Virus record (IMG/VR): IMGVR_UViG_3300037585_003252
Location: 1-25,266 of that record
DNA from: a virus
Reading direction: 5' to 3' (one strand)
Length of the DNA: 25,266 nucleotides
The notes below the pieces were generated by a model. It was not told the DNA's origin. It saw nothing but the letters and a program-made list of their open reading frames with translations, and made no database searches. Shown here in pieces: positions 1,661 to 24,767 of the stretch; position 1 is the stretch's first letter, and each line of letters opens with the position of its first letter. The position numbers and the translations under genes were made by a program.

Positions 1661-3724
1661 ATGAAAATGTTGATAGATAAACTAGTTAAAGATTGGGCTT
1701 GGCGCGTAAATGACGGTATGCCAGATCCTAGCAAGAAAGACCACTTGGAACTTCTTGAAAAAACGTTGCGTTCATATAATTACCCATCTAAATTTGTAAC
1801 AGAGTTTATGCAACAAATAACTGAAAGAGATAAAGTTTACTTTGACGGTAAACCTCCAAAAGGTGCTAAAGTTCAAGTTGGACCAAGAGGTGGGAAATAT
1901 TATTATGGAGATAATAAAACTGGTAAACCTGAACCAGAACCTAAAGCAGTAGATAAGAAAAAATCTGATAAAAAGGTTAAACCTTCTCCAGAAGAAAAAC
2001 TTCAAAAGAAAATCGAAACTCACATGCCTAAAGCATTAGAAGCTGCCAATGAAAAGATTGATAATGTAGCTTTTTCAAATGAACAAGATGAACAAACCTT
2101 CAAAGAAAACTTTCCAAAATTACTAAAAGGCGAGGACGTTAGTCCTGAATCTATAGATGTAATCAATAAATACGCAAGAATTAAGAAGTCTGAAAGTGCA
2201 GTTGAGATTTATATAGCAAATAAAGAACCCGGAGATTTCAGGCAAGGGGCTAGAGATAAAATAGAAATAAAGGGTGGAGCAGCTGGAAGAACTATATTGG
2301 GCAAGATGAAAGAAAAGGGTATGCAAGAAGCCGATCCTATTACATCTAAAGAATCAGTTCCGGTTAAAATTGGTACTAAAACTCTAACACTTGGAAAACT
2401 ATCTGGTGGTAAAACTGTTTCCAATCCAGTTGAAGTTGAAAAACTTCCATCGGGTATAATTACTCAAGTAAAAGTAGGTGATCATATAATGAGAAGGCAA
2501 CCAATGCCAGATAAGGAAAAGTTGATCAGTGAAATTATAGAAATGAAATCGCAAAACCCAGATGCTACAGATGAAGAAGTAAACTACAAGGTTGAACAAC
2601 TACAAAGTGGTATCATTAGATATAACAATCTTATAGATTCTTATGATGGTGTAGATAATTTAGAATCTGTATCACTAGTTGAAGGAGCAAATCCTGCAAC
2701 TGAGAAGGGTAGAGAAAAAATAGCAAAAGAAGGTCCTAGTATAGTAGCAGATGGTATTGAAAAAGCTCTTGGTGAAAACCCAACAAAAGCTGAAAAGCAA
2801 GTAGTAGATGATCTTAGGAAATTGGGAGATATTGATGACCCTGAAGAGTATACAAAAGAAGCAATGGCTATATTAGATAGAATGGGTTCAATTGCTTCTA
2901 TTAAAAAAGGAGCACCAGATGTAGCAGAATCGATTGTTTTACTTGCTATGAATAAACAAGGTAAACCTACAATTGCACCAGCTGGTGAAACCTTCCCAGT
3001 AGCAGATCTAATAGTAATGCCTACAGAGGATTTAGATCCACAAGACCCAGAATACGTTAAAAAAATAGCAGCTGGCGGTAAAACAATAATCTCGATGACA
3101 GATTCAGGAGGTTTAAGTGTTAAGAAGGATGGAGGAGCAGCTTCTGGTTTCACAGCAAAATTAGATATGACTACCTTTAAGAAAAAAGAAACGAAAGAAA
3201 GTTTAAGAAGTGTACTAAATCAACATAATAATTTTATAGGTGGTGCAAAGAAAGGATCAGAATTATCTAATGATAAAATTGAAAAGGGTAAGAAACAATT
3301 AGATCTGAATGAAAAACTAGCAATAAAAAATGGTTTAATAAAAGAGGGTGATATAGTATTCAAAGATGGTAGATCTCCAAGACAATGGGCTGAAGCCAAT
3401 CTTAAAAAATGGGAATCAGAAGGCGACTACAAAAACATGACACCAGAAAACAGAAAACTTTTACTAGATGGAATGGAGCAATATGCTAGAGGAGGTTTAT
3501 TATTAGAAAAGATTCATAATAAAGATTTAGCTTTTCAAGACTATTCTAATGCAAATGCAAATACCAAAACTGGTGAAATAGAAATGAGCGATGGTATAAA
3601 CTGTGTAAATCATATGGCATTCTCAGCTAACCCAGGTTTCAAACCGGCAAAGGATAAAAATGGAAATTGGGTTGCAAGACCTAACTCTGTATATGCTGGT
3701 AACCTTAAAAAGGTATGTAGATAG
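1661..3724 (+). CDS. Large probable virion-associated protein, 687 aa, function unknown
   Basis: The N-terminus (residues 5-60) is a helical module of the type 'WAWRVNDGMPDP..kdHLELL..tLRSYNY', which I associate with structural proteins of marine T4-like phages. A Gly-rich patch PKGAKVQVGPRGGKYYYGD (66-84) and a Lys/Glu/Pro linker (about 85-120) follow, then a long alpha/beta region to the end. Residues 442-457 and 483-496 (PVADLIVM ... GGLSVKKDGGAASG) could weakly resemble a D...SxK nuclease-type core, but the pattern is too loose to assign. No signal peptide or membrane helix is seen. The ATG at 1661 is chosen; a second in-frame ATG at 1667 is also possible, and neither has a Shine-Dalgarno. 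Existence as a gene is secure; the role is not. Confidence 0.7.
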   Translation: MKMLIDKLVKDWAWRVNDGMPDPSKKDHLELLEKTLRSYNYPSKFVTEFMQQITERDKVYFDGKPPKGAKVQVGPRGGKYYYGDNKTGKPEPEPKAVDKKKSDKKVKPSPEEKLQKKIETHMPKALEAANEKIDNVAFSNEQDEQTFKENFPKLLKGEDVSPESIDVINKYARIKKSESAVEIYIANKEPGDFRQGARDKIEIKGGAAGRTILGKMKEKGMQEADPITSKESVPVKIGTKTLTLGKLSGGKTVSNPVEVEKLPSGIITQVKVGDHIMRRQPMPDKEKLISEIIEMKSQNPDATDEEVNYKVEQLQSGIIRYNNLIDSYDGVDNLESVSLVEGANPATEKGREKIAKEGPSIVADGIEKALGENPTKAEKQVVDDLRKLGDIDDPEEYTKEAMAILDRMGSIASIKKGAPDVAESIVLLAMNKQGKPTIAPAGETFPVADLIVMPTEDLDPQDPEYVKKIAAGGKTIISMTDSGGLSVKKDGGAASGFTAKLDMTTFKKKETKESLRSVLNQHNNFIGGAKKGSELSNDKIEKGKKQLDLNEKLAIKNGLIKEGDIVFKDGRSPRQWAEANLKKWESEGDYKNMTPENRKLLLDGMEQYARGGLLLEKIHNKDLAFQDYSNANANTKTGEIEMSDGINCVNHMAFSANPGFKPAKDKNGNWVARPNSVYAGNLKKVCR

Positions 3725-11489: not shown

Positions 11490-11683
11490 TGATCAATATA
11501 AACGACCTAAACAAAAAGCTGAAGGATGTACAAAAAGAAATAGAAGAATTTCAAAAGACTTGCAAACATGAAAAAACTGCAATGAAAATGAATGAAAAAA
11601 ATGAAATTCGCTGGCACTGTATAAAGTGCGATAAATTTATAGGAATACCAACACCAAAGGAGGTTATAGAATGGCTGAAATAA
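11489..11683 (+). CDS. Small zinc-ribbon protein, 64 aa
   Basis: I choose the ATG at 11489, preceded by AGGGAG, over an upstream in-frame TTG at 11465 that would add eight residues within the hairpin region. The N-terminal third (1-24) is a charged helix, probably a coiled coil. A likely metal site is formed by C25 and H27 (TCKHE) with C44 and C47 (WHCIKC), followed by IGIPTPKEVIEWLK. Small proteins of this pattern are frequent in T4-like phages and are thought to be zinc-binding, but their role is unknown. The end overlaps the next gene by 13 bases, and that gene's AAGGAGG lies inside this coding region. Confidence 0.7.
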   Translation: MININDLNKKLKDVQKEIEEFQKTCKHEKTAMKMNEKNEIRWHCIKCDKFIGIPTPKEVIEWLK

Positions 11684-11916
11684 AAGAACAAAAAGATTTA
11701 GTTTTACAGAGAGTCCCACCAGGAGATCAATGGTCACCGGTGGATGGTGATACAAAAGTTATATTACCATCTTTAACAGAAGGTTTAGAATATATCTATC
11801 AAAGAGATGGTCATAGAGACTTCCACCTAGCTGCATTAGATGGAAAAGTATATACTGTAGAGGAAGTAGAAATAGCACCTCCTCCACCAAAAACTTTCAA
11901 CTTATACGGCGAATAA
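11671..11916 (+). CDS. Hypothetical protein, 81 aa
   Basis: I do not recognise this protein. It starts at an ATG eight bases after a strong AAGGAGG, overlapping the zinc-ribbon gene by 13 bases. The sequence has a region rich in charged and aromatic residues (RVPPGDQWSPVDGDTKV, EYIYQRDGHRDFH) and a Pro-rich end (APPPPKTFNLYGE), giving a compact beta-rich appearance. No cysteine or membrane segment is present. Its stop is followed at once by promoter P5, so it is the last gene of the reductase unit. Confidence 0.65.
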   Translation: MAEIKEQKDLVLQRVPPGDQWSPVDGDTKVILPSLTEGLEYIYQRDGHRDFHLAALDGKVYTVEEVEIAPPPPKTFNLYGE

Positions 11917-11952: not shown

Positions 11953-12471
11953 ATGATTACAATGATAGAAGGCCCGAGGAATACGGGGAAAACACACTTG
12001 TTACAACAAGCTGGAATTAAGGTTTATAAATTCCCATTTGCAAAATGGTATGATATCCTGGATTTAGGCAAAGATAAATTAGCTGCTAATGCTTTTGGCA
12101 TGGGTAGATTGATTCTTCAAGACCTCGACAATCAAGGATACATAGATAATATAGTAACAGACAGAAGTATTATCAGCCCATTAGCTTGGGGAGTAATTGA
12201 AGGTAGAATGAGTCAAAAAGATTCATACAAACTTTTAATGGAAATGATAAACAGTGGTATAATAAACTCAGATAACAAAATTATATACGTTAAGGGAATG
12301 AACCCTCATGGTAGAGAGAGAGGAGATCATTGGGACGAAGCTGACTATGAAATAGAAGACCGAATGTATTATCATATAATGGAAACTCTAGACAAGTATC
12401 TTGGTAACGTTATAGAATTCGAAAATAAATTTGACAAATTATCAATAGAATTATTCAAAAAAATAGTATGA
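11953..12471 (+). CDS. P-loop kinase, probable deoxynucleoside monophosphate kinase
   Basis: This 172-residue protein begins with a beta strand and the P-loop GPRNTGKT (7-14). It has a TDRSIISPLAWG segment (69-80) like the DR(S/Y) motif of thymidylate and deoxynucleoside kinases, and a charged lid region NPHGRERGDHWDE (117-129). The size fits a small NMP kinase. It overlaps the TS-family gene by four bases and both precede dUTPase, so I infer that it phosphorylates a deoxynucleoside monophosphate made by its neighbour, as T4 gp1 does for hydroxymethyl-dCMP. No Shine-Dalgarno is present; the promoter geometry suggests leaderless translation. A start at the ATG at 11962 (MIEGPRNTGKT) is also possible. 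Confidence 0.75.
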   Translation: MITMIEGPRNTGKTHLLQQAGIKVYKFPFAKWYDILDLGKDKLAANAFGMGRLILQDLDNQGYIDNIVTDRSIISPLAWGVIEGRMSQKDSYKLLMEMINSGIINSDNKIIYVKGMNPHGRERGDHWDEADYEIEDRMYYHIMETLDKYLGNVIEFENKFDKLSIELFKKIV

Positions 12472-13217
12472 GCTTTTCACAATATCCATCGCACGCAATC
12501 AAAAAGACCAAAGAGAAATTATACTCTTTAGGAAAAGAAGTATTCAGTGGAAAATGGCAATCTGTCGACGTTGACCATGCAATGTGGGAGTTATTCAATC
12601 ATAACTTCTCAACTGCAATGCCTCAAACTGTTCCAGAAATGGTTGATGAAATTAAACCCAATTTACCATGGGCAGATGACCACTTTCATGAAAGAATCGG
12701 AGGATTACCGCTAAACCCACCCCCAAGTAATGAATGGTGGCCATTCGCACAAAGAGGTAATAAACAGTTCAAAGCTGATAAAAAGTTTTCTCATACATAT
12801 CCGGAAAGATTATGGCCACCGATAAAAACTGGAATCAGGTTTAGCTATGGCGATATGGGAGATGTAATAGATTTATTAGAAAGAGAACCCTTTACTCGTC
12901 AAGCTTTTCTGCCAATATGGTATCCAGAAGATACTGGTGCTCATCATAAAGAAAGAGTACCATGTACAATAGGATATCATTTTATTAGAAGAGATGACTG
13001 GTTACATATGTTTTACTTTATTCGTTCATGCGATTATGTTAGACACTTTAGAGATGATATATACATGGCAATGAGAAAAGCAAGATTTATATTAGATGAA
13101 TTACAAACAAGAAATAAAGACTGGGCTAAAGTTAAGCTTGGTATTTATGATATGAAAATTGTCTCACTGCATTGCTTTGCTGGTGAGAAAGAAATATTAA
13201 AACAAAATAATAAATAG
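12468..13217 (+). CDS. Thymidylate synthase-family enzyme, predicted to act on dCMP (hydroxymethylase or methylase)
   Basis: The 249-residue product contains the thymidylate-synthase catalytic region. VPC (164-166) supplies the nucleophile Cys166, RSCD (186-189) binds phosphate, and SLHCF (233-237) matches the 'THLY' strand. The spacing from Cys to RSxD is 20 residues, as in E. coli TS (C146 to R166), without a gap. The residue aligned with E. coli N177, which selects uracil, is Asp197 (FRDDIY). The same Asn-to-Asp change is known in T4 dCMP hydroxymethylase, where it selects cytosine. I therefore predict a dCMP-modifying enzyme that makes 5-hydroxymethyl- or 5-methyl-dCMP. Many phage relatives are simply annotated thymidylate synthase, so the product is not proven. 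The gene overlaps the kinase (ATGA) and lies nine bases before dUTPase. Confidence 0.75.
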   Translation: MSFSQYPSHAIKKTKEKLYSLGKEVFSGKWQSVDVDHAMWELFNHNFSTAMPQTVPEMVDEIKPNLPWADDHFHERIGGLPLNPPPSNEWWPFAQRGNKQFKADKKFSHTYPERLWPPIKTGIRFSYGDMGDVIDLLEREPFTRQAFLPIWYPEDTGAHHKERVPCTIGYHFIRRDDWLHMFYFIRSCDYVRHFRDDIYMAMRKARFILDELQTRNKDWAKVKLGIYDMKIVSLHCFAGEKEILKQNNK

Positions 13218-13226
13218 GAGAAGAAA

Positions 13227-13664
13227 ATGAAGTTTACAAAAATTAGAGATGTAAAATCCCCAACTAGAGCAAACGCAACTGATGCGGGTATAGACTTTTT
13301 TATACCGAATACTGAACAACCAATATGCCTAAGCCCAGGTCACTCATGTGTAGTACCATCTGGTATCAAGGTTAATTGCCCAGAAGGATACGCTTTAATA
13401 GCATTTAATAAATCTGGAATTGCAGTTAAAAAATCTTTACATGTTGGTGCATGCGTAGTTGATCATGGCTATCAGGGTGAAGTACATATCAACTTAACTA
13501 ATGTTGGAACTGAAAATATAACATTAGAACCTGGTGATAAAATAGTACAATTCGTTCTATTACCATTAGGAGATCCTATAGTAGAAGAAGTATCAGAAGA
13601 AGATTTATATGCAGAAGTATCTTCAAGGGGTGAAGGTAAATTTGGTTCATCTGGTACAAAATAA
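13227..13664 (+). CDS. dut: dUTPase (trimeric dUTP diphosphatase)
   Basis: All five dUTPase motifs are visible in this 145-residue protein: ATDAGIDFF (17-25), FNKSGIA (60-66, where Lys replaces the usual Arg), ACVVDHGYQGEVHI (75-88) with catalytic Asp79, GDKIVQFVLLPL (103-114), and RGEGKFGSSG (134-143) carrying the stacking Phe. It hydrolyses dUTP to dUMP and pyrophosphate, keeping uracil out of DNA and feeding dTMP synthesis. Its length is typical of trimeric enzymes. A TAGGAGAAG ribosome-binding site precedes the ATG. It is the last gene of the P5 unit and sits just upstream of promoter P6 and the polymerase. Confidence 0.92.
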   Translation: MKFTKIRDVKSPTRANATDAGIDFFIPNTEQPICLSPGHSCVVPSGIKVNCPEGYALIAFNKSGIAVKKSLHVGACVVDHGYQGEVHINLTNVGTENITLEPGDKIVQFVLLPLGDPIVEEVSEEDLYAEVSSRGEGKFGSSGTK

Positions 13665-13729: not shown

Positions 13730-16177
13730 ATGCTTGATAAAATAAAGGTTTCAAAAATAACATCTCAATTCAATAAGGGTGAATGGGATATGCATTTGTC
13801 TGGGTATGACGAAGATGGTAAGAATGTAAAAGTAAAGCAAAAGTGCAAAGATTACTTTTACTATGATGCAGAACATATTTCAGATATAGATGATTTCCCA
13901 GGATTGAAAGCTACTGGTGATGAAATATTCAAATCAGTAGATGGTAAAGATCTTCTGAGAGTTTATTACACTTCTATTAAAAATAAGAATAAGCTTACAA
14001 AGAAATATATCAAACGTACATACCAAGCTGACTTATCACCAGAATTCAAATTCATGTTGGATAATAATCTAGAGTGGTCTTCGAAACGTCACTTTATGTA
14101 TTTGGATATTGAAACCTGGTATGACCCAGAGGATTCTTCTCAGAATAGACCTGATACACCCAATATGCCAATTACATCAATTGTTGCTTATTCTAGTGAA
14201 GCTAAAAAATATTTTGTATTTTCATGGCATCCAGAAAAAACTAAAAACTTTGATGAACCTAAATTCGTTGACAAGGATAATGTCACTTATGTATTTTGTA
14301 AAACTGAAGAAGAAGTTCTTTTAGGATTTATCAATTTGGTTAGAACAAGTAACCCCGATATTCTTTCTGGGTGGTACTCTTCTGGTTATGATATGCCTTA
14401 TATATTAAATAGGTCTAAAAGACTTGGTTTACCAATTGAAGATATATCGCCTGTAAAAGATTATTATATTAAGAAAAGAGGGGACTATTGGAAATTTCAA
14501 ATTAAAGGTTTGGACCATATTGATATGATGGAAGCTTTACAAGATTTGAAATACAATTTACCGAACTGGAAACTGGCAACAGCTGCAAAGGTTATTCTAA
14601 AGGATGAAGAATTTGGTAAACTTACGGCTGCAACATGGAAAGATTGGTTAGATGATTATGAAGGATTCTTAAAATATGCTGTACGTGATGTTGAGATTCT
14701 AAAAGAAATAAATGAAAAAGTACAAGTATTCGATTTATACATCTCAATGCAACAAATTGCAAATTTACAAACTTTGAATTTAGTTTTCTTCAAGTCTATG
14801 CTATGTGATAATTACATGTGCAAAGAATTTCATAATAAAACTATATTCCCAACAAGATATTCAAAGCGAAGAAGAGATTATCAGGGGGCTATTGTAATTG
14901 ACCCAACTGAACCTGGATTGAATGAGAATGTAACCGTTATGGATTATACTTCACTATATCCAACTACAATGATGGCTTTTAACATATCACCTGAAACTTT
15001 TATATGCTCCCAAGAACAGTGCGAGAAAGCTGGTATGGATATCGAAGAAGTAGTCCAGCAATTGAAAGATGATAATATAGATTATGTAGATACTGGATAT
15101 TCTCAGGATTTATTCGGTAGGAGATATTTGTTCTATGGTCATACTCATAAGGTTGGTATTATCCCTCAAATACTTAAAAAGATATTCGTTCAAAGGGTAG
15201 AGATTAACAGACAGCTTAAAGCTGGAGAAATATCTGATGAAAATTATGAAGCAATGCATAAAAGACAATGGTCATATAAAATTATTATGAACTCTGCTTA
15301 TGGTGCGATGGGATACTCATTATTCCGAATGTGTTTATTTGAATGTGCAGATGCCATTACCTTTTTTGCAAGACAAGCTTTGAAATTTGGATTGATTCAT
15401 TTCAATGAGAAAGGTCACAAACCTTTATACGCAGATACTGATTCTGTTTTTATCAAATCTAGAGGTAAAGACGAAGAGGGTATGAAAGGTATGCAAAAAG
15501 AATACAACGATTCTTTATATGAAAATTTCGTTAAGAAACATAATACAGGTCCGGTAAAAGAGTTCATGTTTCTTGATCTTAAGTTTGAGTACTATTTGGA
15601 TAGAATATATTTCGGAGATGTAAAGAAAAGGTATTATGGTATAGTAAAAGGTTCTGGTTACAAAGTAATCCGAGGAATGAATATTATACGTAAAGAAACA
15701 CCAGAATTCCTAAAGAAAAGGTTGAATGATATGGCTGAACTGGCTGTAACTAATAAGCTTACTTTAGATTGGATTCTGAATCTACGTAAAGAAGTGGAAT
15801 CACAGCCATATCAAAAAATTGGAATGGCAAAGGGATTTGGAAAACCATTTAATACTTATACAAAAACCATGCCTCAACATGTAAAAGCAGCAGTTTGGGC
15901 TAATGATATATTAGGCACTGAATTAACTAATATGGATAATCCTTATCTATTTTATGTTAAGTCTAAAATTGAAGATGATAAGAAAGTTAAACAAAGGCAT
16001 AAAGCAATATGCATCAATGAAGACGATTTACACTTGATTGACAAAAATAAGGATAAATTCGAAATTGACTATGATATATTATTTTATAAACAATGTATCG
16101 TTCCAGTAGAAGAATTTAAGCAAATGCCATATATAGTAGATTTACTAGAAAAATATAATGAAACAATCACAACTTGA
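13730..16177 (+). CDS. gp43: Family B replicative DNA polymerase (T4 gp43-like)
   Basis: The 815-residue enzyme has a complete set of exonuclease and polymerase motifs. Exo I is YLDIETW (124-130, D126/E128), exo II is SGWYSSGYD (213-221) and exo III is YAVRD (316-320). The linker DYQGAIVIDP (383-392) follows. Motif A is VMDYTSLYPT (403-412), motif B is KIIMNSAYG (517-525) and motif C is YADTDS (567-572). It is slightly shorter than T4 gp43 (898 aa). Proofreading should be active, since all exo acidic residues are kept. It synthesises the phage genome with the helicase and SSB encoded upstream; clamp, loader and primase are not in the window. It has its own promoter. The phage thus encodes both family B and family A polymerase domains. 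Confidence 0.95.
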   Translation: MLDKIKVSKITSQFNKGEWDMHLSGYDEDGKNVKVKQKCKDYFYYDAEHISDIDDFPGLKATGDEIFKSVDGKDLLRVYYTSIKNKNKLTKKYIKRTYQADLSPEFKFMLDNNLEWSSKRHFMYLDIETWYDPEDSSQNRPDTPNMPITSIVAYSSEAKKYFVFSWHPEKTKNFDEPKFVDKDNVTYVFCKTEEEVLLGFINLVRTSNPDILSGWYSSGYDMPYILNRSKRLGLPIEDISPVKDYYIKKRGDYWKFQIKGLDHIDMMEALQDLKYNLPNWKLATAAKVILKDEEFGKLTAATWKDWLDDYEGFLKYAVRDVEILKEINEKVQVFDLYISMQQIANLQTLNLVFFKSMLCDNYMCKEFHNKTIFPTRYSKRRRDYQGAIVIDPTEPGLNENVTVMDYTSLYPTTMMAFNISPETFICSQEQCEKAGMDIEEVVQQLKDDNIDYVDTGYSQDLFGRRYLFYGHTHKVGIIPQILKKIFVQRVEINRQLKAGEISDENYEAMHKRQWSYKIIMNSAYGAMGYSLFRMCLFECADAITFFARQALKFGLIHFNEKGHKPLYADTDSVFIKSRGKDEEGMKGMQKEYNDSLYENFVKKHNTGPVKEFMFLDLKFEYYLDRIYFGDVKKRYYGIVKGSGYKVIRGMNIIRKETPEFLKKRLNDMAELAVTNKLTLDWILNLRKEVESQPYQKIGMAKGFGKPFNTYTKTMPQHVKAAVWANDILGTELTNMDNPYLFYVKSKIEDDKKVKQRHKAICINEDDLHLIDKNKDKFEIDYDILFYKQCIVPVEEFKQMPYIVDLLEKYNETITT

Positions 16178-16200: not shown

Positions 16201-16242
16201 AGTAAATAAAAAGTTATAAATTAAATTAAAATGGAGGTTATT

Positions 16243-16530
16243 ATGTTATACCCAATTAGCGACAAGGTCGTAATCAAAAAAACAGATGCGGATGAAGTTA
16301 CATCCGGGGGTGTTATTATGCCCGATACTACGCAAGAAGCAGTGATCACTGGTGAAGTAGTAGCTGTAGGTCCTGGGCAATTATTGTTATCGGGATCAAG
16401 AGGGCATATGCAATGTAAAGTTGGAGATACTGTAGTATTTCTAAAGCATAGCGCTAGAAAGACTGAAATAGAAGGCGAAGAATTCATGGTCATCAGAGAA
16501 CCAGATTTAGAAACAATTATAGGAGATTAA
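16243..16530 (+). CDS. groES: Co-chaperonin GroES-like protein
   Basis: I place the start at the ATG at 16243, because TGGAGG (16232-16237) is a good ribosome-binding site for it and GroES proteins begin just before the 'PLxDRVVxK' strand, here LYPISDKVVIKK. A start at the ATG at 16231 would add four residues. The 95-residue product has the Gly-rich mobile loop with GGVIMP (22-27) that contacts GroEL, the VAVGPG turn, and VGDTVVFLKHS, all GroES features. It forms the lid of the chaperonin. Unlike T4 gp31, which works with host GroEL, it is encoded with its own GroEL three bases downstream. Confidence 0.9.
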   Translation: MLYPISDKVVIKKTDADEVTSGGVIMPDTTQEAVITGEVVAVGPGQLLLSGSRGHMQCKVGDTVVFLKHSARKTEIEGEEFMVIREPDLETIIGD

Positions 16531-16533
16531 TAA

Positions 16534-18159
16534 ATGTCAAAGAAATTAGACTTTAGCACTGATGCAAGAACAGAATTGTTCAAAGGTGTTGATAAATTAG
16601 CAGAAGCAGTAAGAACTACCTTAGGACCTAGCGGTAGAAACGTTGTTATTGAAAAAGATTTTGGTCAATACCATTCAACCAAAGATGGTGTAACAGTAGC
16701 AAAAGAAATTGAATTAGAAGATCCAGTACAAAATGCTGGAGCTCAAATGGTAAAAGAAGTAGCAAATCAAGTTAACGATGAAGCTGGTGATGGAACAACT
16801 ACAGCAACAGTATTAGCACACTCAATTCTTAAAGAGGGTTATAGAAAAGTACTTAACGGTTCGAATCCAATAGAATTGAAAAGAGGAATGGATCTAGCAG
16901 TAAAGGGAATAGTTGAAGCAATTGATGATATTTCGATAGAGGTTACTTCCAATGAAGAAATTACTCAAGTTGGAACAATTTCAGCAAATAATGATAAAAC
17001 TATTGGTAATCTTATTTCATCTGCAATGGAAAAGGTTGGTAACGATGGCGTAATTACAGTAGAAGAATCAAGAACAGCTGATGATGAATTAGAAGTTGTT
17101 GAAGGTTTACAATTTGATAAGGGTTACTGCTCACCATATTTTATAACTAATCAGCAGTCAATGTTAGTTCAGATGGATGAACCTTTAATTTTATTATACG
17201 ATAGAAAACTTACATCGTTAAAGAGTTTAGTTAAAACTTTAGAATATTGTATAGCACAGTCAAAACCTCTAGTAATTATTGCAGAAGATATAGATGGAGA
17301 AGCATTAGCAGGTTTAATTGTAAACAAAGCAAGAGGAACACTTCAAGTTGCTGCTGCAAAAGCTCCAGGCTTTGGTGATAAGAGAAAAGATATGCTTGAA
17401 GATATTGCATGTCTAACTGGTGGTACTGTGGTATCTATTGATAAGGGTATGAAATTAGAAAACTTTGATCCTTCTTGGTTTGGTTCTGCAAAAGTTGTTA
17501 CAATGGATAATAAGCAAACTACTATTGTTGATGGGTTCGGAGAATCAGAAGCAATTCAAAAAAGATGCGAAGAGATTCAAGGAATGATTGATTCAGCAAG
17601 TTCTTCTTATGAAAGAGAGGGAATGCAAGAAAGACTCGGTAAACTAATAGGTGGAGTAGCAATAATGAAAATTGGAGCTGGTTCAGAATTAGAAATGAAA
17701 GAAAAGAAAGATAGAGTAGAAGATGCTTTAGCTGCAACTCGAGCAGCAATTGACGAGGGAATAGTTCCTGGTGGAGGAATTGCATTGATGAGAGCTAGAA
17801 CAGCAATTACAGATATGAAGGGCGAGAACTCAGATCAAATGGAAGGTGTATCAATAGTTCTTAGAGCTTGCTCATCTCCCTTCAATTCTATAATGGAAAA
17901 CGCCGGATTAAATGCAGAAGTAATTTGGAATAAGATTGATAGCTCTAAGAAAACTAATGGGTATGATGCAAGAAGCGAAGAGCTAGTGGATATGCTTGAA
18001 GCTGGTATCATTGATCCAGCAAAGGTAACTAGAGTAGCTTTAGAAAAAGCAGTTTCTGTAGCTGGTACAATGTTAACTACAGAATGTGTAGTATCAAAAA
18101 TTAAAACAGACGATAATAATAATAACGCAGCCAATCCAATGGCTGGAATGGGATTCTAA
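16534..18159 (+). CDS. groEL: Chaperonin GroEL
   Basis: The 541-residue protein is a full-length GroEL. The equatorial nucleotide site is intact: [13 protein letters not shown] (29-41), [10 protein letters not shown] (50-59) with Asp51, and GDGTTT (85-90). The catalytic segment [16 protein letters not shown] and the [10 protein letters not shown] loop are present. The apical domain lies between about 190 and 375 and is more diverged. The tail ends NPMAGMGF in place of the GGM repeats of many bacterial GroELs. It should assemble with the adjacent GroES to fold phage proteins such as the capsid protein or the large polymerase. Only three bases separate it from groES, so the two are co-expressed. 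A one-base gap follows before the next gene. Confidence 0.97.
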
Positions 18160-18160
18160 A

Positions 18161-18412
18161 ATGGCAAAAGAAATTAAAATGAACCAAAGTCAACAACAAG
18201 TAAATATTAATCCAGACGATTTAGTAGATGTAGTATGCAATGAGTGTGGAGGTCAAACCTTCGTTCAAGCATTCTTATTCAAAAAACTATCAGCAGTATT
18301 ATCACCGAATGGAAAAGAATCAATGATTCCATTGCAAATATTCAAGTGTGATAGCTGTGGACATATCAATGATGAATTTATACCTAATAAAGACGGTAAA
18401 AAAGTACTATAA
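18161..18412 (+). CDS. Zinc-ribbon protein, 83 aa
   Basis: Two Cys pairs, CNEC (26-29) and CDSC (63-66), form a probable four-cysteine zinc ribbon. They flank a helical stretch FVQAFLFKKLSAVLSPNGK (34-52) with a conserved-looking 'SPNGKE...P.Q.F.C..CGH' pattern that I have met in other phage proteins of unknown role. It could bind nucleic acid or a protein partner. The ATG lies one base after the GroEL stop, so translation is coupled to GroEL. The stop overlaps the next start by one base (TAATG). The function is unassigned. Confidence 0.75.
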   Translation: MAKEIKMNQSQQQVNINPDDLVDVVCNECGGQTFVQAFLFKKLSAVLSPNGKESMIPLQIFKCDSCGHINDEFIPNKDGKKVL

Positions 18413-18651
18413 TGCCTGTCAACTTCGATAGAAAAAAGCCACGCGAAAAGGTGGAACACCCAAACCATTACAATAAAGGTAAGATTGAAGTTTGGGATTT
18501 CATAGCTGATCAAGGTCTGGACTTCTTTGAAGGGAATATAGTAAAATATATTTGTAGATGGCGTACAAAAAATGGTATGGAAGATTTATTAAAGGTAAAA
18601 CAATATATCGATAAGTATATAGAAGAAGCTAGAAAAGATTATGAACTTTAA
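18412..18651 (+). CDS. DUF3310 family protein, 79 aa
   Basis: The segment HPNHYNKGKIEVWDFIADQG (16-35), followed by LDFFEGNIVKYICRWRTKNG and EDLLKVKQYIDKYI, matches the DUF3310 family ('HYn.gkiEviDfie..l.F..GN.iKYi.Ra..K....eDL.Ka..Yi'). This family is found in many phages, and some database entries name it SaV-like or nucleotide kinase without strong proof. It is small and helical and probably binds a nucleotide or a protein. It overlaps the previous stop by one base and the next gene by 11 bases, within a polymerase-chaperonin-nuclease cluster. Confidence 0.8.
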   Translation: MPVNFDRKKPREKVEHPNHYNKGKIEVWDFIADQGLDFFEGNIVKYICRWRTKNGMEDLLKVKQYIDKYIEEARKDYEL

Positions 18652-19585
18652 GACTGTAAATATCAAAGACCCATTAGCAATGTCTAGGGAGGCAAAGCGA
18701 TTAGGAAAGAAGATGATTTCTAATAGTCAAATTAAAACCTATACGCAGTGTAACCATAAATGGAAAACTATGTATATAGATGGTAACAAACAATACCAAC
18801 AATCCATATTCTTTACATTTGGTACAGCAATGCACGAAACTCTACAGCATTTTTTATCTGTTATGTATAATCAAACGGCAAAGGCTGCAGAATCTTTAGA
18901 TTTACCTAAACTTCTAAAAGATAATATGAGCATAGCTTATAAATCAGCATTGAAGAAAAACAAGGGTGAACATTTTACAAATAAATTTGACCTAGAAGAT
19001 ATATACAAACAAGGAGTTAATATCCTAGAAGAATTTGTAAAGAAAAGAGGCCAGCATTTTTCAAAGAAGAATACAGAATTATTAGGGATTGAAATTCCTA
19101 TACTTGTTGAATCTGATGTTAACGAGAATATATTGATTGGAGGTTTCCTTGATATAGTTATGAAAGAGCACGACAAGATAAAAATATATGATATCAAAAC
19201 TTCATATAAAACTTGGGATAAGAAAAAGAAAAAAGAAGGCTCTTTTCAATTAAGATTGTATAAGAAGTATTTCGCAAAGCAATATGGCGTAGAAGAAGAT
19301 GATATAGATATAGAATTCTTTATAGTTAAAAGAAACGTCTATGAAAATTGCGATTTCCCTCAAAGTAGAATACAAAGGTTTTCACCAGCTTCTGGTAAAC
19401 CAACTATGTCTAAAACTGCTAATGTAGCAAATGAATTTATATCTTCAGTTTTTAATGAAGATGGAAGTTATAATACAAATAGAAAATACGAGGCAACTGC
19501 AGGTGTTAAAGGGCACAACTGTAAATATTGCCCATTCAAAACAAATTATGATTTATGCCCTAAAGAAAATAGAATACGGAGTTAA
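18641..19585 (+). CDS. PD-(D/E)XK nuclease of the Cas4/RecB type with a probable 4Fe-4S cluster
   Basis: This 314-residue protein has the Cas4/RecB-nuclease layout. SNSQIKTYTQCNHKWK (27-42) supplies the first Cys (C37), and GTAMHETLQ (61-69) supplies the motif I His65. GGFLDIV (166-172, D170) and YDIKTS (182-187, D183 and K185) form the catalytic core. HNCKYCPFKTNYDLCP (292-307) gives C294, C297 and C306, so four Cys can bind an iron-sulfur cluster as in Cas4 and AddB. It probably processes DNA ends in recombination or replication. No CRISPR array, Cas1 or Cas2 is near, so a CRISPR role is not supported. It overlaps the DUF3310 gene by 11 bases. Confidence 0.85.
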   Translation: MNFKTVNIKDPLAMSREAKRLGKKMISNSQIKTYTQCNHKWKTMYIDGNKQYQQSIFFTFGTAMHETLQHFLSVMYNQTAKAAESLDLPKLLKDNMSIAYKSALKKNKGEHFTNKFDLEDIYKQGVNILEEFVKKRGQHFSKKNTELLGIEIPILVESDVNENILIGGFLDIVMKEHDKIKIYDIKTSYKTWDKKKKKEGSFQLRLYKKYFAKQYGVEEDDIDIEFFIVKRNVYENCDFPQSRIQRFSPASGKPTMSKTANVANEFISSVFNEDGSYNTNRKYEATAGVKGHNCKYCPFKTNYDLCPKENRIRS

Positions 19586-19587
19586 TT

Positions 19588-19827
19588 ATGACTATTAAAA
19601 TGATTGAATGTTTGATGAATATTGCAATTGCAGAGAAATCAAAAGCAACTGTAAATTTGAATATATACTTACAAAATCCGACCGCTGTAGGTGAACACCC
19701 AGATTTAGTATCTGAAGCTGATAAACTAGTAGAAGCAATTTCTGCTGCTGATGGGAAGATCGCTGTATTAAATGGAATGGTAGCCGAAATTAAAGCAGCA
19801 ACCACAAGTGAAACACCAACAACATAG
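19588..19827 (+). CDS. Hypothetical protein, 79 aa
   Basis: The gene starts two bases after the nuclease stop. The product, 79 residues with no Cys after the first 10, is mainly helical: an N-terminal helix (MTIKMIECLMNIAIAEKS), a short extended part (ATVNLNIYLQNPTAVG) and a second amphipathic helix (DLVSEADKLVEAISAADGKI), then a Thr-rich end. It is probably a small oligomeric, coiled-coil protein. I recognise no family. Its last 20 bases overlap the next gene, which starts with GTG. Confidence 0.6.
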   Translation: MTIKMIECLMNIAIAEKSKATVNLNIYLQNPTAVGEHPDLVSEADKLVEAISAADGKIAVLNGMVAEIKAATTSETPTT

Positions 19828-20038
19828 ACCAAAACTAGATTTACATGGTACATTTCACAGCGAGGTATTTGAAAAAGTCGATGAATTTATAAGTGCTAAC
19901 TTATATGCTAATGAAATAGAAATTGTAACTGGTTATAGCGATAGAATGAAAGATCTCGTTCAAAGCGTTCTTTCTGATTATAAACTTAAAGGCAACTGCC
20001 CTCCATATAATGATGGAACATTAGTAGTTAAATTATGA
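19808..20038 (+). CDS. Smr-domain protein, 76 aa (GTG start)
   Basis: LDLHGTF (10-16) and IEIVTGYSDRMKDLVQSVL (37-55) match the LDLHG and TGxG motifs of the Smr domain of MutS2-type proteins, which is a nuclease or nucleic-acid-binding domain. At 76 residues the protein is little more than the domain. The only start in frame before LDLHG is the GTG at 19808, inside the preceding gene. The stop overlaps the cysteine synthase start (ATGA), so the two are coupled. It could cleave or bind branched DNA during recombination, but a stand-alone Smr of this size has no certain role. Confidence 0.75.
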   Translation: MKHQQHRPKLDLHGTFHSEVFEKVDEFISANLYANEIEIVTGYSDRMKDLVQSVLSDYKLKGNCPPYNDGTLVVKL

Positions 20039-20928
20039 CTTTATCTAATTACGTTGGAAACACTCCACTAATACCAATAAGCCTAGGACCATATACAGTC
20101 TGGTGTAAATGCGAATTCATGAATCCAGGTGGGTCAGTTAAAGATAGGATGGCAACCTATATAATAAATGACGCAGAGAATAGAAGATTCATCAAAAGAG
20201 GTGATACTTTAATAGAAGCAACATCAGGCAACACTGGAATAGCATTTGCAATGTTAGCAGCTGAAAGAGGTTATAAAATGAAAATTGTTATGCCTTCAAA
20301 CATGTCTGAAGAACGCAAACAAATGTTAAAGTTTTATGGTGCAGAACTAATACAAGTTGAGCCGGGAGATTTTGATGGAGCTATAGCAATGAGAGATGAT
20401 CTAGCAAAGAGTAGAGGATATTTTAATTGCAATCAATTTCATAATCCATTAAATATAGAAGTACATTATAAAACTACTGGTCCAGAAATAAATAGGCAAT
20501 TTAGAAATGCAAATACTTATGAGACAATATGGCCTCAAGCATTTGTTGCTGGTACTGGTACAGGAGGTACTATAATGGGGGCAGGAAAATACTTACAAAA
20601 ACAATTCCCAGGTTTGGCGTTAGTAGCAGTTGAACCAGCAGAAAGTCCTGTAATGTCTGGAGGGGAACCAGGCTTACATGGTATACAAGGGATTGGAGAT
20701 GGTAGTAAGTTTTTAGTCAACTTGGAAAAGATTAGTAAAGTTAAAACTGTACATACTAATTGTGCAAAAAAGGTTGCAAAACATTTAGCTTTGAGATACG
20801 GTTTATTCGTAGGTATTAGTTCTGGAGCAAATGTAAAAGCTGCATTTGAACACTTAAGAGATACAGATCAAAAGAATGCTATAACTATCCTTTGCGATAG
20901 AGGCGAAAGATATTTAAGTTGCCTATAA
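20035..20928 (+). CDS. cysK: Cysteine synthase (O-acetylserine sulfhydrylase) family, PLP-dependent
   Basis: The 297-residue product has the beta-family PLP fold. YVGNTPLIPI (6-15), NPGGSVKDRMA (30-40) with the PLP Lys36, and TSGNTGIA (63-70), the substrate loop, are intact. VAGTGTGGTI binds the PLP phosphate, and FVGISSGAN carries the C-terminal Ser. It is close to the CysK/CysM length of about 300. It should make cysteine from O-acetylserine (or phosphoserine) and sulfide, supporting synthesis of Cys-rich or iron-sulfur proteins during infection. It is an auxiliary metabolic gene, rare enough in phages to be notable. Cystathionine beta-synthase activity is a less likely alternative, given the lack of extra domains. 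Confidence 0.9.
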   Translation: MTLSNYVGNTPLIPISLGPYTVWCKCEFMNPGGSVKDRMATYIINDAENRRFIKRGDTLIEATSGNTGIAFAMLAAERGYKMKIVMPSNMSEERKQMLKFYGAELIQVEPGDFDGAIAMRDDLAKSRGYFNCNQFHNPLNIEVHYKTTGPEINRQFRNANTYETIWPQAFVAGTGTGGTIMGAGKYLQKQFPGLALVAVEPAESPVMSGGEPGLHGIQGIGDGSKFLVNLEKISKVKTVHTNCAKKVAKHLALRYGLFVGISSGANVKAAFEHLRDTDQKNAITILCDRGERYLSCL

Positions 20929-20960
20929 TTTGGATAAGTCGAAAAAAATAGTTATATTAG
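20929..20960 (+). promoter_or_regulatory. Phage promoter P7 (leaderless type) for the SLOG gene
   Basis: TTTGGATAAGTC (20929-20940) begins at the base after the cysteine synthase stop. TATATTAG (20953-20960) starts 24 bases further on. The ATG at 20965 follows after four bases, the same geometry as P1, and no Shine-Dalgarno can fit. Confidence 0.8.
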
Positions 20961-20964
20961 TAAT

Positions 20965-21372
20965 ATGAAAAGAAAAATAGGTATAGTAGGAAGTAGAGAA
21001 TACTCTAATAAGAGAAGGGTCAAAGATACTATATTCAAATTGAAAAGAAAATTTGGAGAAGAGGTTGAAATAGTTTCAGGAGGATGTCCTCATGGAGCTG
21101 ATAAATATGCAAAGAAGTATGCATTAGATTTCCAATTAAGATACAAGGAATTTAACCCAGCTCATACAGTTCAGAATTTATACTCTGCTTTGAATGAGAA
21201 TTATTATAATAAAGAATATGCACCCAAAAATTTTTTCCATAGGAATAAACTTCTTGCTAGATACGTAGATTATATAATTGCTTTTATCCCAGAAGGTACT
21301 AATGCAAATGGTACAATGGACACAGTAAAGCATGCAAAGAAATTAGGTAAAAAAATAGTGATAATTACTTAA
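20965..21372 (+). CDS. SLOG-superfamily protein (DUF2493, YspA-like)
   Basis: This 135-residue Rossmann-like protein has IGIVGSREYSN (5-15), IVSGGCPHGADKYA (36-49), HRNKLLARYVDYIIAFIPEGT and a final HAKKLGKKIVIIT strand. This is the pattern of the DUF2493 branch of the SLOG superfamily, related to DprA and YpsA. SLOG proteins are thought to bind nucleotides or nucleotide-derived signals, and some work in defence systems. It has its own leaderless-type promoter and no operon partner upstream, which suggests independent, probably early, expression. A nucleotide-sensing or anti-defence role is an inference. Confidence 0.8.
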   Translation: MKRKIGIVGSREYSNKRRVKDTIFKLKRKFGEEVEIVSGGCPHGADKYAKKYALDFQLRYKEFNPAHTVQNLYSALNENYYNKEYAPKNFFHRNKLLARYVDYIIAFIPEGTNANGTMDTVKHAKKLGKKIVIIT

Positions 21373-21388
21373 CTTTCGATATATAGCT

Positions 21389-21400
21389 ATATATTTATAT
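21389..21400 (+). promoter_or_regulatory. TATATATTTATA motif before the RHH gene
   Basis: The core TATTTATA (21392-21399) sits within an A/T-only run, 16 bases upstream of the ATG at 21416, with GAAGGAAATGG between. It is the fourth gene junction in the window carrying this octamer. A promoter role is suggested but not shown. Confidence 0.35.
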
Positions 21401-21415
21401 ACGAAGGAAATGGTT

Positions 21416-21589
21416 ATGAAATACAAAGAAAATAAACTAACATCGGTTAACATTAACGATAATAATCGTAAAGAATTCAAGAAGCTTGCAATTGATGAAG
21501 AAATAACATTCCAAAAGCTTGTTAACATAGCTTTGGAGTTATATATAACTGATGTGAAATTTAGACGTCAAATCAATAAAAGGAGATAG
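21416..21589 (+). CDS. Small ribbon-helix-helix (Arc/CopG-like) regulator, 57 aa
   Basis: The short reading frame encodes a strand-helix-helix pattern. LTSVNINDNNRKEFKKLAID (8-27) gives a basic beta ribbon and first helix, and EEITFQKLVNIALELYITD (28-46) gives the second helix, followed by a basic tail. This is the layout of ribbon-helix-helix repressors, which act as dimers on short inverted repeats. It has a GGAA site before the start, and its last codons contain the AGGAG of the next gene, so it is cotranscribed with the glycosyltransferases and could autoregulate them. The family call rests on pattern, not on a signature motif. Confidence 0.6.
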   Translation: MKYKENKLTSVNINDNNRKEFKKLAIDEEITFQKLVNIALELYITDVKFRRQINKRR

Positions 21590-21593
21590 TTAT

Positions 21594-23036
21594 ATGCAGT
21601 TGCCATCGTTAAAGAAAGCAAAGAAGAAGTCGTACAAAAAGAAAATACTACTATTATCAGATGATCTGAGATTGAAGTCTGGAGTTGGTACGATGTCAAG
21701 AGAAATCGTTAGAGGAACAGTTCAAAAATACGACTGGTTTCAAATAGCAGGAGCACTTAATCATCCAGATGAAGGAAAGGGCATAATCGATATGTCAGAG
21801 GGATTCCAAAAAGGAACTGGAGTTAAAGATGCAAATGTCAGACTTTTACCAATAGCGGGTTACGGTAATCAAAATATATTAAGATCAATCATTAATCAGG
21901 AAAAGCCAGATGCAATCTGCCACTTCACAGACCCAAGGTTTTGGGAATGGTTATATGATATGGAACACGAGGTAAGACAAACTTGTCCGATTACGTATCT
22001 AAATATTTGGGATGATTTACCATTCCCTCATTGGAATGAAAATGCCTATGAATCTTGTGATTTATTAATGGCAATATCAAAACAAACTTACAACATCAAT
22101 AAGCACGTTTGCCAAAGAAAACCTAGAGTGGAAGAAAAAGATTTGTTTTATGTACAACATGGTATAGATGAAACAATGTATATGCCAATAGATAAAACTC
22201 AAAAAGAATATAAGGACTTTGCAAAAGATGTTCTAGGTGGAAAGGAAAAGGACTTTATATTATTCTTTAACTCAAGAAATATAAGAAGGAAATCTCCATC
22301 AGATTTAATGCTTGGCTATAAGAAATTCTGTGATATGTTAACCAAGGAGCAGGCAAGTAAATGCTTATTGTTAATGCACACAGATGCAGTTGATACAAAT
22401 GGTACAGATTTACCAGCAGTTATGAGAGCTTTATGTCCTGAATACGATGTAAGATTCAGCACAACTAAGATGGATGATAAATATCTAAATTACATGTACA
22501 ATTTAGCAGATGTAATTTGCAACCCTTCCTCAGCAGAAGGATTCGGTTTATCTCATATGGAAGGTATTATGTCCGGGACTCCAACGATTGCAACTGTATT
22601 GGGTGGTTTACAAGATCAAATGGGATTCAAAGTAAAAGGCGAAGAATTTAACGTTAAACATTTGTCAGCAGAATTTCCAAGTAATTCTACAAGTGAATTA
22701 TCTACTGATCATGGAGAATGGACTTTACCCTTATGGCCTCAATTGAATTTACAGGGGTCACCAGCCACGCCTTATATTTTTGACTCAAGACCTAGTATAT
22801 CTCAGATAACAAATCAAATGAAAGTTTGGTATGATTTAGGAAAAGAAGAAAGAGAGAGAAGAGGATTGATAGGTAGGAATTGGGCAATTGAAAATGGCTT
22901 TACTCACAAAGGAATGGCAGAAGCATTTATGAAAGCTGTTGATACATGCCTGGAAACTTGGGAACCGAAAGCAAATTATATATTAAAAAAGGTAGAACCT
23001 ATTAAAGAAGTATATCCAACAGGAGAATTAATATGA
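21594..23036 (+). CDS. GT4-type (GT-B fold) glycosyltransferase, 480 aa
   Basis: KILLLSDDLRLKSGVG (17-32) is an N-terminal Rossmann strand with the Gly-rich loop of GT-B enzymes. QHGIDETMY (188-196), NSRNIRRKSP (226-235), and the signature E-x7-E in SSAEGFGLSHMEGIMSGTP (E315, E323) are the donor-binding elements of family GT4. It moves a sugar from a nucleotide-sugar donor to an unknown acceptor. The N-terminus is rich in Lys (residues 7-17). A segment around residues 345-390 appears to be an insertion before the last helices. It follows the ribbon-helix-helix gene with AGGAG and overlaps the second glycosyltransferase by four bases (ATGA). Confidence 0.88.
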   Translation: MQLPSLKKAKKKSYKKKILLLSDDLRLKSGVGTMSREIVRGTVQKYDWFQIAGALNHPDEGKGIIDMSEGFQKGTGVKDANVRLLPIAGYGNQNILRSIINQEKPDAICHFTDPRFWEWLYDMEHEVRQTCPITYLNIWDDLPFPHWNENAYESCDLLMAISKQTYNINKHVCQRKPRVEEKDLFYVQHGIDETMYMPIDKTQKEYKDFAKDVLGGKEKDFILFFNSRNIRRKSPSDLMLGYKKFCDMLTKEQASKCLLLMHTDAVDTNGTDLPAVMRALCPEYDVRFSTTKMDDKYLNYMYNLADVICNPSSAEGFGLSHMEGIMSGTPTIATVLGGLQDQMGFKVKGEEFNVKHLSAEFPSNSTSELSTDHGEWTLPLWPQLNLQGSPATPYIFDSRPSISQITNQMKVWYDLGKEERERRGLIGRNWAIENGFTHKGMAEAFMKAVDTCLETWEPKANYILKKVEPIKEVYPTGELI

Positions 23037-24310
23037 AGCAAAATTTAGTTATAAGTTGCCCAGCAACATCTAGAAGTGGTTATGGTGATCACGCAAGAGA
23101 TCTAATTAGAAGTTTAATCTCTATGGATAAATTTAATATTAAAATATTAGATCAAAGATGGGGACAATGCCCTCAAAACTCTTTAACAAAAGAAGACGAA
23201 GATATATTTTCAAGATTAATAAAAGATGGTAAGTTAAGAACAAAACCTGATGTATGGATTCAAGTAACTGTACCGAATGAATTTCAACCGGTGGGTGAAT
23301 ACAATATAGGAATTACTGCTGGAATGGAAACTACCTTAGTAGATCCTACCTGGCTTGAAGGATGCAATAGAATGGATAGACTTATAGTACCATCTGTTCA
23401 TGCTAAACAAGTTTTTGAGCAATCAAAATATGATAAACATGATAAAGCCTCTAATACAAAGACTGGCGAATTGAAATGCGAAGTACCAATAGACGTTCTA
23501 TTTGAAGGTTCTGATATGAATATCTTTAAGAAGATTAAAAAAGATGAAATACCAGTAACAGTGATAAAAACTATGGAAGAAATAAAAGAAGAATTCTGTT
23601 TCCTATCAGTTGGTCATTGGCTTCAAGGCGATTTCGGCCATGATAGAAAAGATATTGGTGGGGTTATAAAAGTAATATGCGAATCTTTTAGTGGTAAGAA
23701 GAACAAACCAGCACTAATACTGAAAACTTCCGGAGCTACTTACTCAATTAAAGATAGAGAACAAATGCTTCACAAAATCAGAACTGTTATGCAAAGTGTC
23801 AAGAATAACGCGGTAAGCGTTTACCTTCTTCATGGTGATATGACACCAAACGAATTAAATGGTCTATACAATCATCCAAAAGTAAAAGCAATGGTTTCTT
23901 TTACTCACGGAGAAGGGTATGGAAGACCGCTACAAGAATTCAGCATTACAGGTAAGCCAGTAATAGCTCCAGGGTGGTCTGGTCAATTAGACTTTTTAAG
24001 CGAATATGGGATATTACTAAAAGGACAAGTTCAAGCTGTACATGAATCAGCTGCACAAGAAAAGATGATATTAAAAGAAGCTGGTTGGTTCTACTGTGAT
24101 GTAAATTATGCAACAGCTGTACTTAAAGATGTTTACAAGAATTATAAAAAGTATTTAGAATCAACAAGAAAGCAAACGCAATATATAAAAGAAAACTTTA
24201 CTTTAGAGCTAATGAAAGAGAAATTCAAAACTATGATGAATGAAGAAATTTCAAAAAGACCTAAACAAGTAGAATTAAAATTACCAAAATTGGAGACAAC
24301 AAATGCCTAA
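23033..24310 (+). CDS. GT4-type glycosyltransferase, second copy, 425 aa
   Basis: The start ATG overlaps the first glycosyltransferase stop by four bases. The protein opens with NLVISCPATSRSGYGDHARD (4-23), a GT-B N-terminal loop that binds the acceptor side, and has LSVGHWLQGDFGHDRKDIGG (191-210) at the start of the donor domain. THGEGYGRPLQEFSITGKP (291-309) has E294 and E302 in the E-x7-E spacing. It is diverged from its neighbour (different N-terminal sequence and length), so this is not a recent duplication. Acceptors could be phage DNA bases, a virion protein, or host surface sugars. The gene overlaps the next by eight bases. Confidence 0.85.
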   Translation: MKQNLVISCPATSRSGYGDHARDLIRSLISMDKFNIKILDQRWGQCPQNSLTKEDEDIFSRLIKDGKLRTKPDVWIQVTVPNEFQPVGEYNIGITAGMETTLVDPTWLEGCNRMDRLIVPSVHAKQVFEQSKYDKHDKASNTKTGELKCEVPIDVLFEGSDMNIFKKIKKDEIPVTVIKTMEEIKEEFCFLSVGHWLQGDFGHDRKDIGGVIKVICESFSGKKNKPALILKTSGATYSIKDREQMLHKIRTVMQSVKNNAVSVYLLHGDMTPNELNGLYNHPKVKAMVSFTHGEGYGRPLQEFSITGKPVIAPGWSGQLDFLSEYGILLKGQVQAVHESAAQEKMILKEAGWFYCDVNYATAVLKDVYKNYKKYLESTRKQTQYIKENFTLELMKEKFKTMMNEEISKRPKQVELKLPKLETTNA

Positions 24311-24767
24311 AGAACAAATAACAAAAGAAGATTGGGAATTAAGCCCGATTACAGATAGAAAAGAAGTATTAAAAGAAGTGCACGAAAGATATGGGGAAAG
24401 AAAAATGTGTATTGGAAGTGGGTACTTTACAAACGAATACCCATTAAATTACAAAAAGAACCCTGATTTCGAAATAGAAGGCTACGAAAAGAATATGCCA
24501 CAATTGATGAAAGATTTAAGATTTGATGATGGAGAATCTTATTGGTACCCGTCTACTATACAATTACAAGATGGCATCGTTTTCCCTGATGGAAAAAGTA
24601 AAGAAGATTGGAAATGGTGTTATGCTCCAATAGAACAACTTGAAGACAAAGATAAAGTTGGCGAGTATGAATCTAAGATAAATATGGAAAAAGCTGAAAG
24701 ATTTGATAGATTCTTAGAAGCTAGTAAAAAATTAAACGGCGTAGAGTTAGATGCATTAGATGAGTAG
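24303..24767 (+). CDS. Hypothetical protein, 154 aa
   Basis: I do not recognise the family. The protein is acidic and rich in aromatic residues: KMCIGSGYFTNEYPLNYK (34-51), GESYWYPSTIQLQDGIVFPD (77-96) and WKWCYAPIEQL (102-112), then a charged helical end. The YPSTIQLQDGIVFPDG stretch resembles hypothetical proteins in other marine T4-like phages. It overlaps the second glycosyltransferase by eight bases and the next gene by eight, so it belongs to the same unit. No membrane segment or clear catalytic motif is seen. Confidence 0.65.
   Translation: MPKEQITKEDWELSPITDRKEVLKEVHERYGERKMCIGSGYFTNEYPLNYKKNPDFEIEGYEKNMPQLMKDLRFDDGESYWYPSTIQLQDGIVFPDGKSKEDWKWCYAPIEQLEDKDKVGEYESKINMEKAERFDRFLEASKKLNGVELDALDE

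Follow-up and report, generated by a model that had tools for sequence, protein, structure and literature searches.

The locus and its fold

The window, i.e. the whole stretch of DNA analyzed here, is an uncultivated virus record of 25,266 bases. It contains a gene of the thymidylate synthase (TS) superfamily preceded by a P-loop kinase-like gene and followed by genes of a dUTPase and a family B DNA polymerase (Table 1). The TS-like open reading frame is uninterrupted and encodes 249 amino acids. Its product matches phrog_160 'thymidylate synthase' (E 2e-22) and TIGR03283 (E 3e-7). The PF00303 score, 17.8 bits, is below the curated cut-off of 24.3, and thus the protein is a divergent member of the superfamily. 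The PDB matches of the family profile are MilA (E 3.5e-7), thymidylate synthases, the phage dCMP hydroxylase 9iqu/9iqc and the T4 dCMP hydroxymethylase.

Table 1. Genes and predicted active-site positions of the locus, and associated genes at related loci
Feature	Position	Strand	Evidence
P-loop kinase-like gene, overlaps the start of the TS-like gene (ATGA); candidate modified-dCMP kinase	11953..12471	+	
TS-superfamily gene with cytosine-type Asp, matches phrog_160; ATG at 12468, stop at 13217	12468..13217	+	ORF, profile, model, alignment
His109, where T4 has Ser94; 138/140	12792..12794	+	alignment
Tyr111 (E. coli Tyr94); 140/140	12798..12800	+	alignment
Arg163, three residues N-terminal of Cys; Arg in 140/140	12954..12956	+	alignment
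Cys166, nucleophile position (E. coli Cys146, T4 Cys148); 140/140	12963..12965	+	alignment
R186-S187-C188-D189 phosphate loop (E. coli R166-D169)	13023..13034	+	alignment
His193, replaces Gly173 of TS and hydroxymethylases (T4 Gly175); 134/140	13044..13046	+	alignment
Asp197, base-selecting position (E. coli Asn177, T4 Asp179); 140/140	13056..13058	+	alignment
dUTPase family gene, directly downstream of the TS-like gene	13227..13664	+	
Family B DNA polymerase; would need to accept the modified nucleotide	13730..16177	+	
Asparagine-synthetase-like amidotransferase gene of relatives	L007:8634-10004; L012:4156-5454; 12 more loci		
phrog_13667 'unknown function', a second protein of TS fold, encoded ahead of the TS-like gene	L188:4001-4891; 65 other loci (L136-L201)		

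The AlphaFold2 model of the protein (pLDDT 82, pTM 0.84) is poor at residues 81-130, a stretch that includes the equivalents of E58 and W80. In VIA-align it superimposes on TS-superfamily chains at Z 17-19. The top match is 9iqu, the dCMP hydroxylase AfhB of phage HY126 with dCMP (Z 18.8, rmsd 2.7, 203 residues aligned). The values for 9iqc with FAD (18.6), MilA (18.2), T4 gp42 (17.6) and E. coli TS (17.5) are all within about 1.3 of it, and thus Foldseek and VIA-align cannot tell a hydroxymethylase, a hydroxylase and a TS apart, and the fold does not assign the function. The protein does have the TS fold, as follows from these Z values and from the presence of the nucleophilic Cys and of Arg186 in all 140 relatives described below.

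Neither a dCTPase nor a dCMP deaminase was recognized in the window. On the contigs of the window clade (138 kb and 134 kb, possibly incomplete) there is no second TS and no ThyX, and thus the gene content of this clade is compatible with a role in dTMP supply.

Positions 16231-24767 of the window are collinear with Flavobacterium phage immuto (L217; GroEL 55%, two glycosyltransferases 45-46%), and the small ORF 11671-11916 has an immuto homologue adjoining QueF. Where the window has the kinase, the TS-like gene and the dUTPase, immuto has DpdA, a thymidylate kinase and QueF, in both cases before the polymerase and GroES-GroEL. DpdA and QueF belong to the 7-deazaguanine DNA modification set, with QueC, QueD and QueE encoded further upstream. 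The gene order suggests that the matching position in immuto is a DNA-modification slot. The glycosyltransferases of the window (21594-24310) were considered as candidate DNA glucosyltransferases. This reading was rejected, as they are collinear with the immuto pair, which lies in a sugar-nucleotide cluster, and the modification genes of immuto serve 7-deazaguanine.

The window also encodes a second DNA polymerase-type protein, a short one of family A (615-1640, 341 amino acids), in addition to the full family B enzyme, and a phage-encoded GroES and GroEL pair (16231-18159). The product of 20035-20928 is a cysteine-synthase-like PLP enzyme (TIGR01136, 310 bits at a cut-off of 344), and the 687-residue protein encoded by 1661-3724 has only a chance-level weak PHROG match.

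Conservation of the active site

Relatives were collected by tblastn against phages (113 GenBank records with a match at E 1e-3, including Mycobacterium phage Muddy), by scanning viral contigs on the basis of an alignment (503 loci, of which the best 80 were taken), from genome contigs (9 loci) and through the neighboring partner gene described below. Most of them are annotated just as 'thymidylate synthase'. The conservation counts cover 140 distinct proteins, each 200 amino acids long or longer, with 26-93% identity to the window protein. The patterns of the viral-contig scan favored Asp197, whereas the relatives from the partner gene, genome contigs and tblastn were not selected on it; Asp197 and Arg163 are present in 63/63 full-length TS-like proteins reached via the partner gene.

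The original prediction had aligned Cys166 and the RSCD loop with C146-N177 of E. coli TS without gaps and placed Asp197 at the N177 position. Both assignments are correct: the distance from the Cys is 31 residues in the two proteins, and the Asp occurs in 140/140 relatives. The other invariant residues are Tyr111, Arg144, Gln145, Arg163, Cys166, Arg186 and His235. Position 167 (147 in E. coli) is Thr in 117 proteins and Ser in 23. Asp189, retained in 136/140, corresponds to the Asp169 that binds the pterin in E. coli TS. Position 209 is Phe in the window protein (Phe237; Tyr218 in T4, Tyr209 in E. coli TS).

With characterized enzymes the family compares as follows (E. coli numbering). Position 177 is occupied by Asn in E. 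coli TS and the SPO1, M6, phiW-14 and ViI enzymes, and by Asp in T4 gp42, MilA, RB69 ORF048, ORM20, GodonK, Planchet and the family. At position 147 TS has His, the hmU phages have Asn, T4, RB69 and MilA have Thr, and the family has Thr or Ser. All examined enzymes of hmU phages (SPO1, M6, phiW-14, ViI) have Asn at both positions; the products of the M6, phiW-14 and ViI enzymes are assigned from the DNA chemistry of these phages. The third residue before the Cys (position -3) is Asp in T4, SPO1, M6, phiW-14, ViI, MilA, Planchet and GodonK, Glu in RB69 ORF048 and ORM20, Leu in E. coli TS, and Arg in the family. TS and the hydroxymethylases have Gly at position 173, RB69 and ORM20 have Val, and the family has His.

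The hallmarks of ThyA, Asn177, His147, Gly173, Tyr209 and a Pfam score above the cut-off, are replaced by Asp (140/140), Thr/Ser, His, Phe and a score below it. The T4-type dCMP hydroxymethylase is matched at Asp177 (T4 Asp179). It is not matched at the acidic -3 residue (T4 Asp145), which is Arg163 in 140/140. The dCMP 5-hydroxylase residues Glu at -3, Asn169 and Val173, as read from RB69 ORF048 and ORM20 and not from the AfhB chain, are replaced by Arg, Asp and His, with Asp177 present.

In a tree of 27 sequences the family and gut phage DP_SC6 form one clade (support 100/99), apart from the TS, T4, hmU, GodonK, Planchet and RB69/ORM20 lineages; because of the long branches of T4 gp42, E. 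coli TS and DP_SC6, the relations outside the clade are unsure. The window protein belongs to this clade both by its place in the tree and by its Cys, Arg at -3, Thr/Ser147, His173 and Asp177. Judging from the alignment and the tree, we consider the family to be an uncharacterized Arg-x-Pro-Cys/Asp177, candidate cytosine-type clade of the TS superfamily. The DP_SC6 protein (L206, gut phage DP SC_6) is a deep outgroup that retains the Arg and the Asp and has Tyr at position 209. A jumbo-phage-type member on a contig binned as Lokiarchaeota (L124) is probably viral or mis-binned.

Gene neighborhoods of the relatives

The TS-like gene of actinophages and of phages of Pseudomonas, Yersinia and Brevundimonas usually has as its neighbors a kinase, MazG or dUTPase, dCMP deaminase and Pol I. 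A phrog_13667/34294 protein is also usually encoded just upstream of it in these phages. The TS-like gene is present at 65/66 loci found from this partner, and the exception ends at a contig edge. The predicted structure of the partner (pLDDT 93) also has the TS fold (AfhB Z 16.2, MilA Z 15.4), and its invariant residues are Cys119, Arg138 and Asp149. In hhalign the TS-like and partner families have no significant match, and the TS likeness of the partner is visible only in its predicted fold. Given the gene pairing and the models, the two proteins likely form a heteromer in these phages.

At 14 sister loci, among which some contigs are represented more than once, the TS-like gene directly adjoins an asparagine-synthetase-like gene, which lies downstream of it in L012-L014 and upstream of it in L006-L011, L049, L052, L061, L072 and L087. 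The two placements represent two different phage lineages. Where complete, this gene encodes an N-terminal MCG[IF] and the motifs SGGLDS and [ST]GDGADELFGGY. Its product scores 200 bits with TIGR01536, below the cut-off of 267 for a true asparagine synthase. The association was rejected as a general rule: there is no such gene on the contigs of the window clade, and it is distant from the TS-like gene in 13/30 further contigs.

Of the 26 long viral contigs searched, most of them from jumbo-phage relatives, 18 have a separate canonical TS (ThyA), and ThyX was found in three isolates among the relatives. The six second TSs examined have canonical Leu143, His147, Gly173, Asn177 and Tyr209. Thus dTMP supply is not the role of the family in those phages. 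RB69, Enterococcus phage Planchet and Ochrobactrum phage ORM_20 likewise encode a kinase next to their TS-type modification genes or a short way from them.

Candidate substrate, mechanism and product

The comparison of MilA with CMP, dCMP and dUMP has cytosine enzymes marked by Asp and uracil enzymes by Asn (PMC5175136). In the MetaGPA analysis positions 177 and 147 were the best at separating modified-cytosine from unmodified contigs, and Asn to Asp at 177 shifts the preference of TS from dUMP to dCMP (PMC8670742). The reading of Asp177 as a mark of cytosine is supported by the N177D/N229D swaps in the literature and by the MetaGPA association (PMC8670742, PMC6400193, PMC5175136). As the family has Asp at 177 and cytosine-type Thr or Ser at 147, each in 140/140, its substrate is likely dCMP. 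The adjoining dUTPase is a point against this, as it yields dUMP and not dCMP. On balance, we assign a probability of about 0.7 to the reading that the gene product, a member of an uncharacterized clade, is a TS-fold enzyme that acts on dCMP and modifies it at C5. The enzyme probably provides modified cytosine for the virus DNA.

The putative mechanism is as follows. Cys166 would add to C6 of dCMP, with N3/N4 of the cytosine recognized and protonated by Asp197, and a group borne by a cofactor would be placed on C5 before replication. The overlapping P-loop kinase and the host NDP kinase could then phosphorylate the product up to the triphosphate, to be taken by the phage polymerase in place of dCTP or part of it. 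Methylene-tetrahydrofolate seems a slightly better candidate cofactor than flavin, since the pterin-binding Asp is kept where the RB69-type hydroxylase has Asn.

The last step cannot proceed in the way described for T4 gp42. In the latter, Asp145 activates water, and D145N forms no 5hm-dCMP (T4 ternary complex; PMC6400193). In the family this site is replaced by Arg163, His109 and His193, at the places of T4 Asp145, Ser94 and Gly175. The original prediction, which named 5-hydroxymethyl- or 5-methyl-dCMP as the product, is thus upheld as to the cytosine base, given Asp177, Thr/Ser147 and the Asn residues of the hmU enzymes, and lacks support, in the form given, as to the chemical step. Its likeness to dCMP hydroxymethylase holds at Asp177 and fails at the water-activating -3 residue, which it had left out. 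It had also omitted a third Asp-bearing chemistry of the TS fold, the FAD-dependent 5-hydroxylation of dCMP.

The last step may involve a histidine-activated water, giving 5-hydroxymethyl-dCMP, or another nucleophile. If dCMP is the substrate, 5-hydroxymethyl-dCMP is still the single likeliest product, albeit short of an even chance; another C1 adduct comes next at about one chance in four, 5-hydroxy-dCMP is somewhat less probable, and 5-methyl-dCMP is the least probable of the four.

An ordinary hydroxymethylase of the T4 gp42 type, with water activated by His109 or His193, is a possible though doubtful explanation of the whole. Like T4 gp42, the protein has Asp197, Thr167, Cys166 and Tyr111 and no long C-terminal tail, and the kinase is a neighbor as in modified-C phages. 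However, the place of Asp145 is occupied by Arg in every relative, Ser94 and Gly175 are replaced as well, and in the tree T4 gp42, L036, GodonK and Planchet are placed apart from the family.

A flavin-dependent 5-hydroxylase similar to AfhB of HY126 and the RB69 5-hydroxy-dCMP synthase, forming glycosylatable 5-hydroxy-dCMP, is distinctly less probable. Although AfhB provides the top structural matches and RB69 ORF048 also has Asp177, Thr147 and Phe209 and has lost Gly173, the Z values of MilA, TS and T4 gp42 are too close to the top, the Glu at -3 and Asn169 of the RB69 type are Arg and Asp in the family, and RB69/ORM20 fall outside the well-supported clade.

About as improbable is a pre-replicative route to cytosine hypermodification. 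A carboxylate-bearing nucleophile such as glycine, for which MnmE-MnmG acting on tRNA uridine is a precedent, might trap the C5 methylene of dCMP, held by Arg163 and His109 or His193; the amidotransferase of the sister loci would then amidate the adduct, and in actinophages the enzyme would be an obligate TS-fold pair.

Slightly weaker still is the case for a dCMP methylase forming 5-methyl-dCMP. Xanthomonas phage XP-12 is named as having such an enzyme (PMC5175136), N229D TS turns into a dCMP methylase according to a title cited in PMC8670742, and the -3 residue is not acidic, as in TS. However, this residue is Leu in TS and not Arg, and no dihydrofolate reductase for cofactor recycling turned up in the general annotation of the window.

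A diverged TS providing dTMP, for which one could cite the downstream dUTPase and the absence of other TS homologues from the contigs of the window clade, is very unlikely in view of the invariant Asp177, the loss of His147, Gly173 and Tyr209, and the separate TS or ThyX kept by relatives.

If all relatives act on dCMP, many cultured phages would carry an unrecognized cytosine modification, which would bear on restriction, CRISPR and sequencing. Literature screened at the level of titles and abstracts contains no nucleoside analysis for the carriers Muddy, GTE2, PMBT14, Emalyn and Serbin. As the charge is reversed at the hydroxymethylase residue and the carriers can be grown, the nature of the product is a directly testable question.

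Comparison with known systems

T4 gp42 (PDB 1b49, 1b5d, 6a9a) shares with the window protein the fold (Z 17.4-17.6), the Cys, the first Arg of the phosphate pair, Thr147, Asp177, Asp169 and the short C-terminus. It differs at Asp145/Arg163, Ser94/His109, Gly175/His193 and Tyr218/Phe237, is identical at about 15% of the structurally aligned positions, and belongs to a separate clade. E. coli ThyA has in common with the window protein the fold, Cys, RSCD, Tyr94, Arg126 and His207, whereas Asn177, Leu143, His147, Gly173, Tyr209 and the C-terminal tail are its own.

The AfhB (9iqu/9iqc) and RB69 ORF048 type is the best structural match and resembles the window protein in Asp177, Thr147 and the loss of Gly173; RB69 ORF048 further has Phe209 and a kinase gene nearby. 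However, it has Glu at -3 and Asn169 instead of Arg and Asp and forms a separate clade. In RB69-like phages 5-hydroxylation of dCMP on the TS fold provides the precursor of arabinosyl-cytosine (PMC13390438). The CMP hydroxymethylase MilA (5b6d), the best PDB sequence match of the family profile, shares Asp177 and Thr147 and differs at -3 (Asp), 173 (Gly) and 167 (Ala), as read from the alignment and PMC5175136.

Finally, CmoX/CmoY of Synechococcus phage S-B43 is a system in which an asparagine-synthetase-like gene teams with a cytosine C5 enzyme (PMC12783734), similar to the arrangement in the 14 sister loci. However, CmoX is a homologue of C5 DNA methyltransferases that acts on DNA with carboxy-SAM and does not have the TS fold (PMC12783734), and the window has no such ligase gene.
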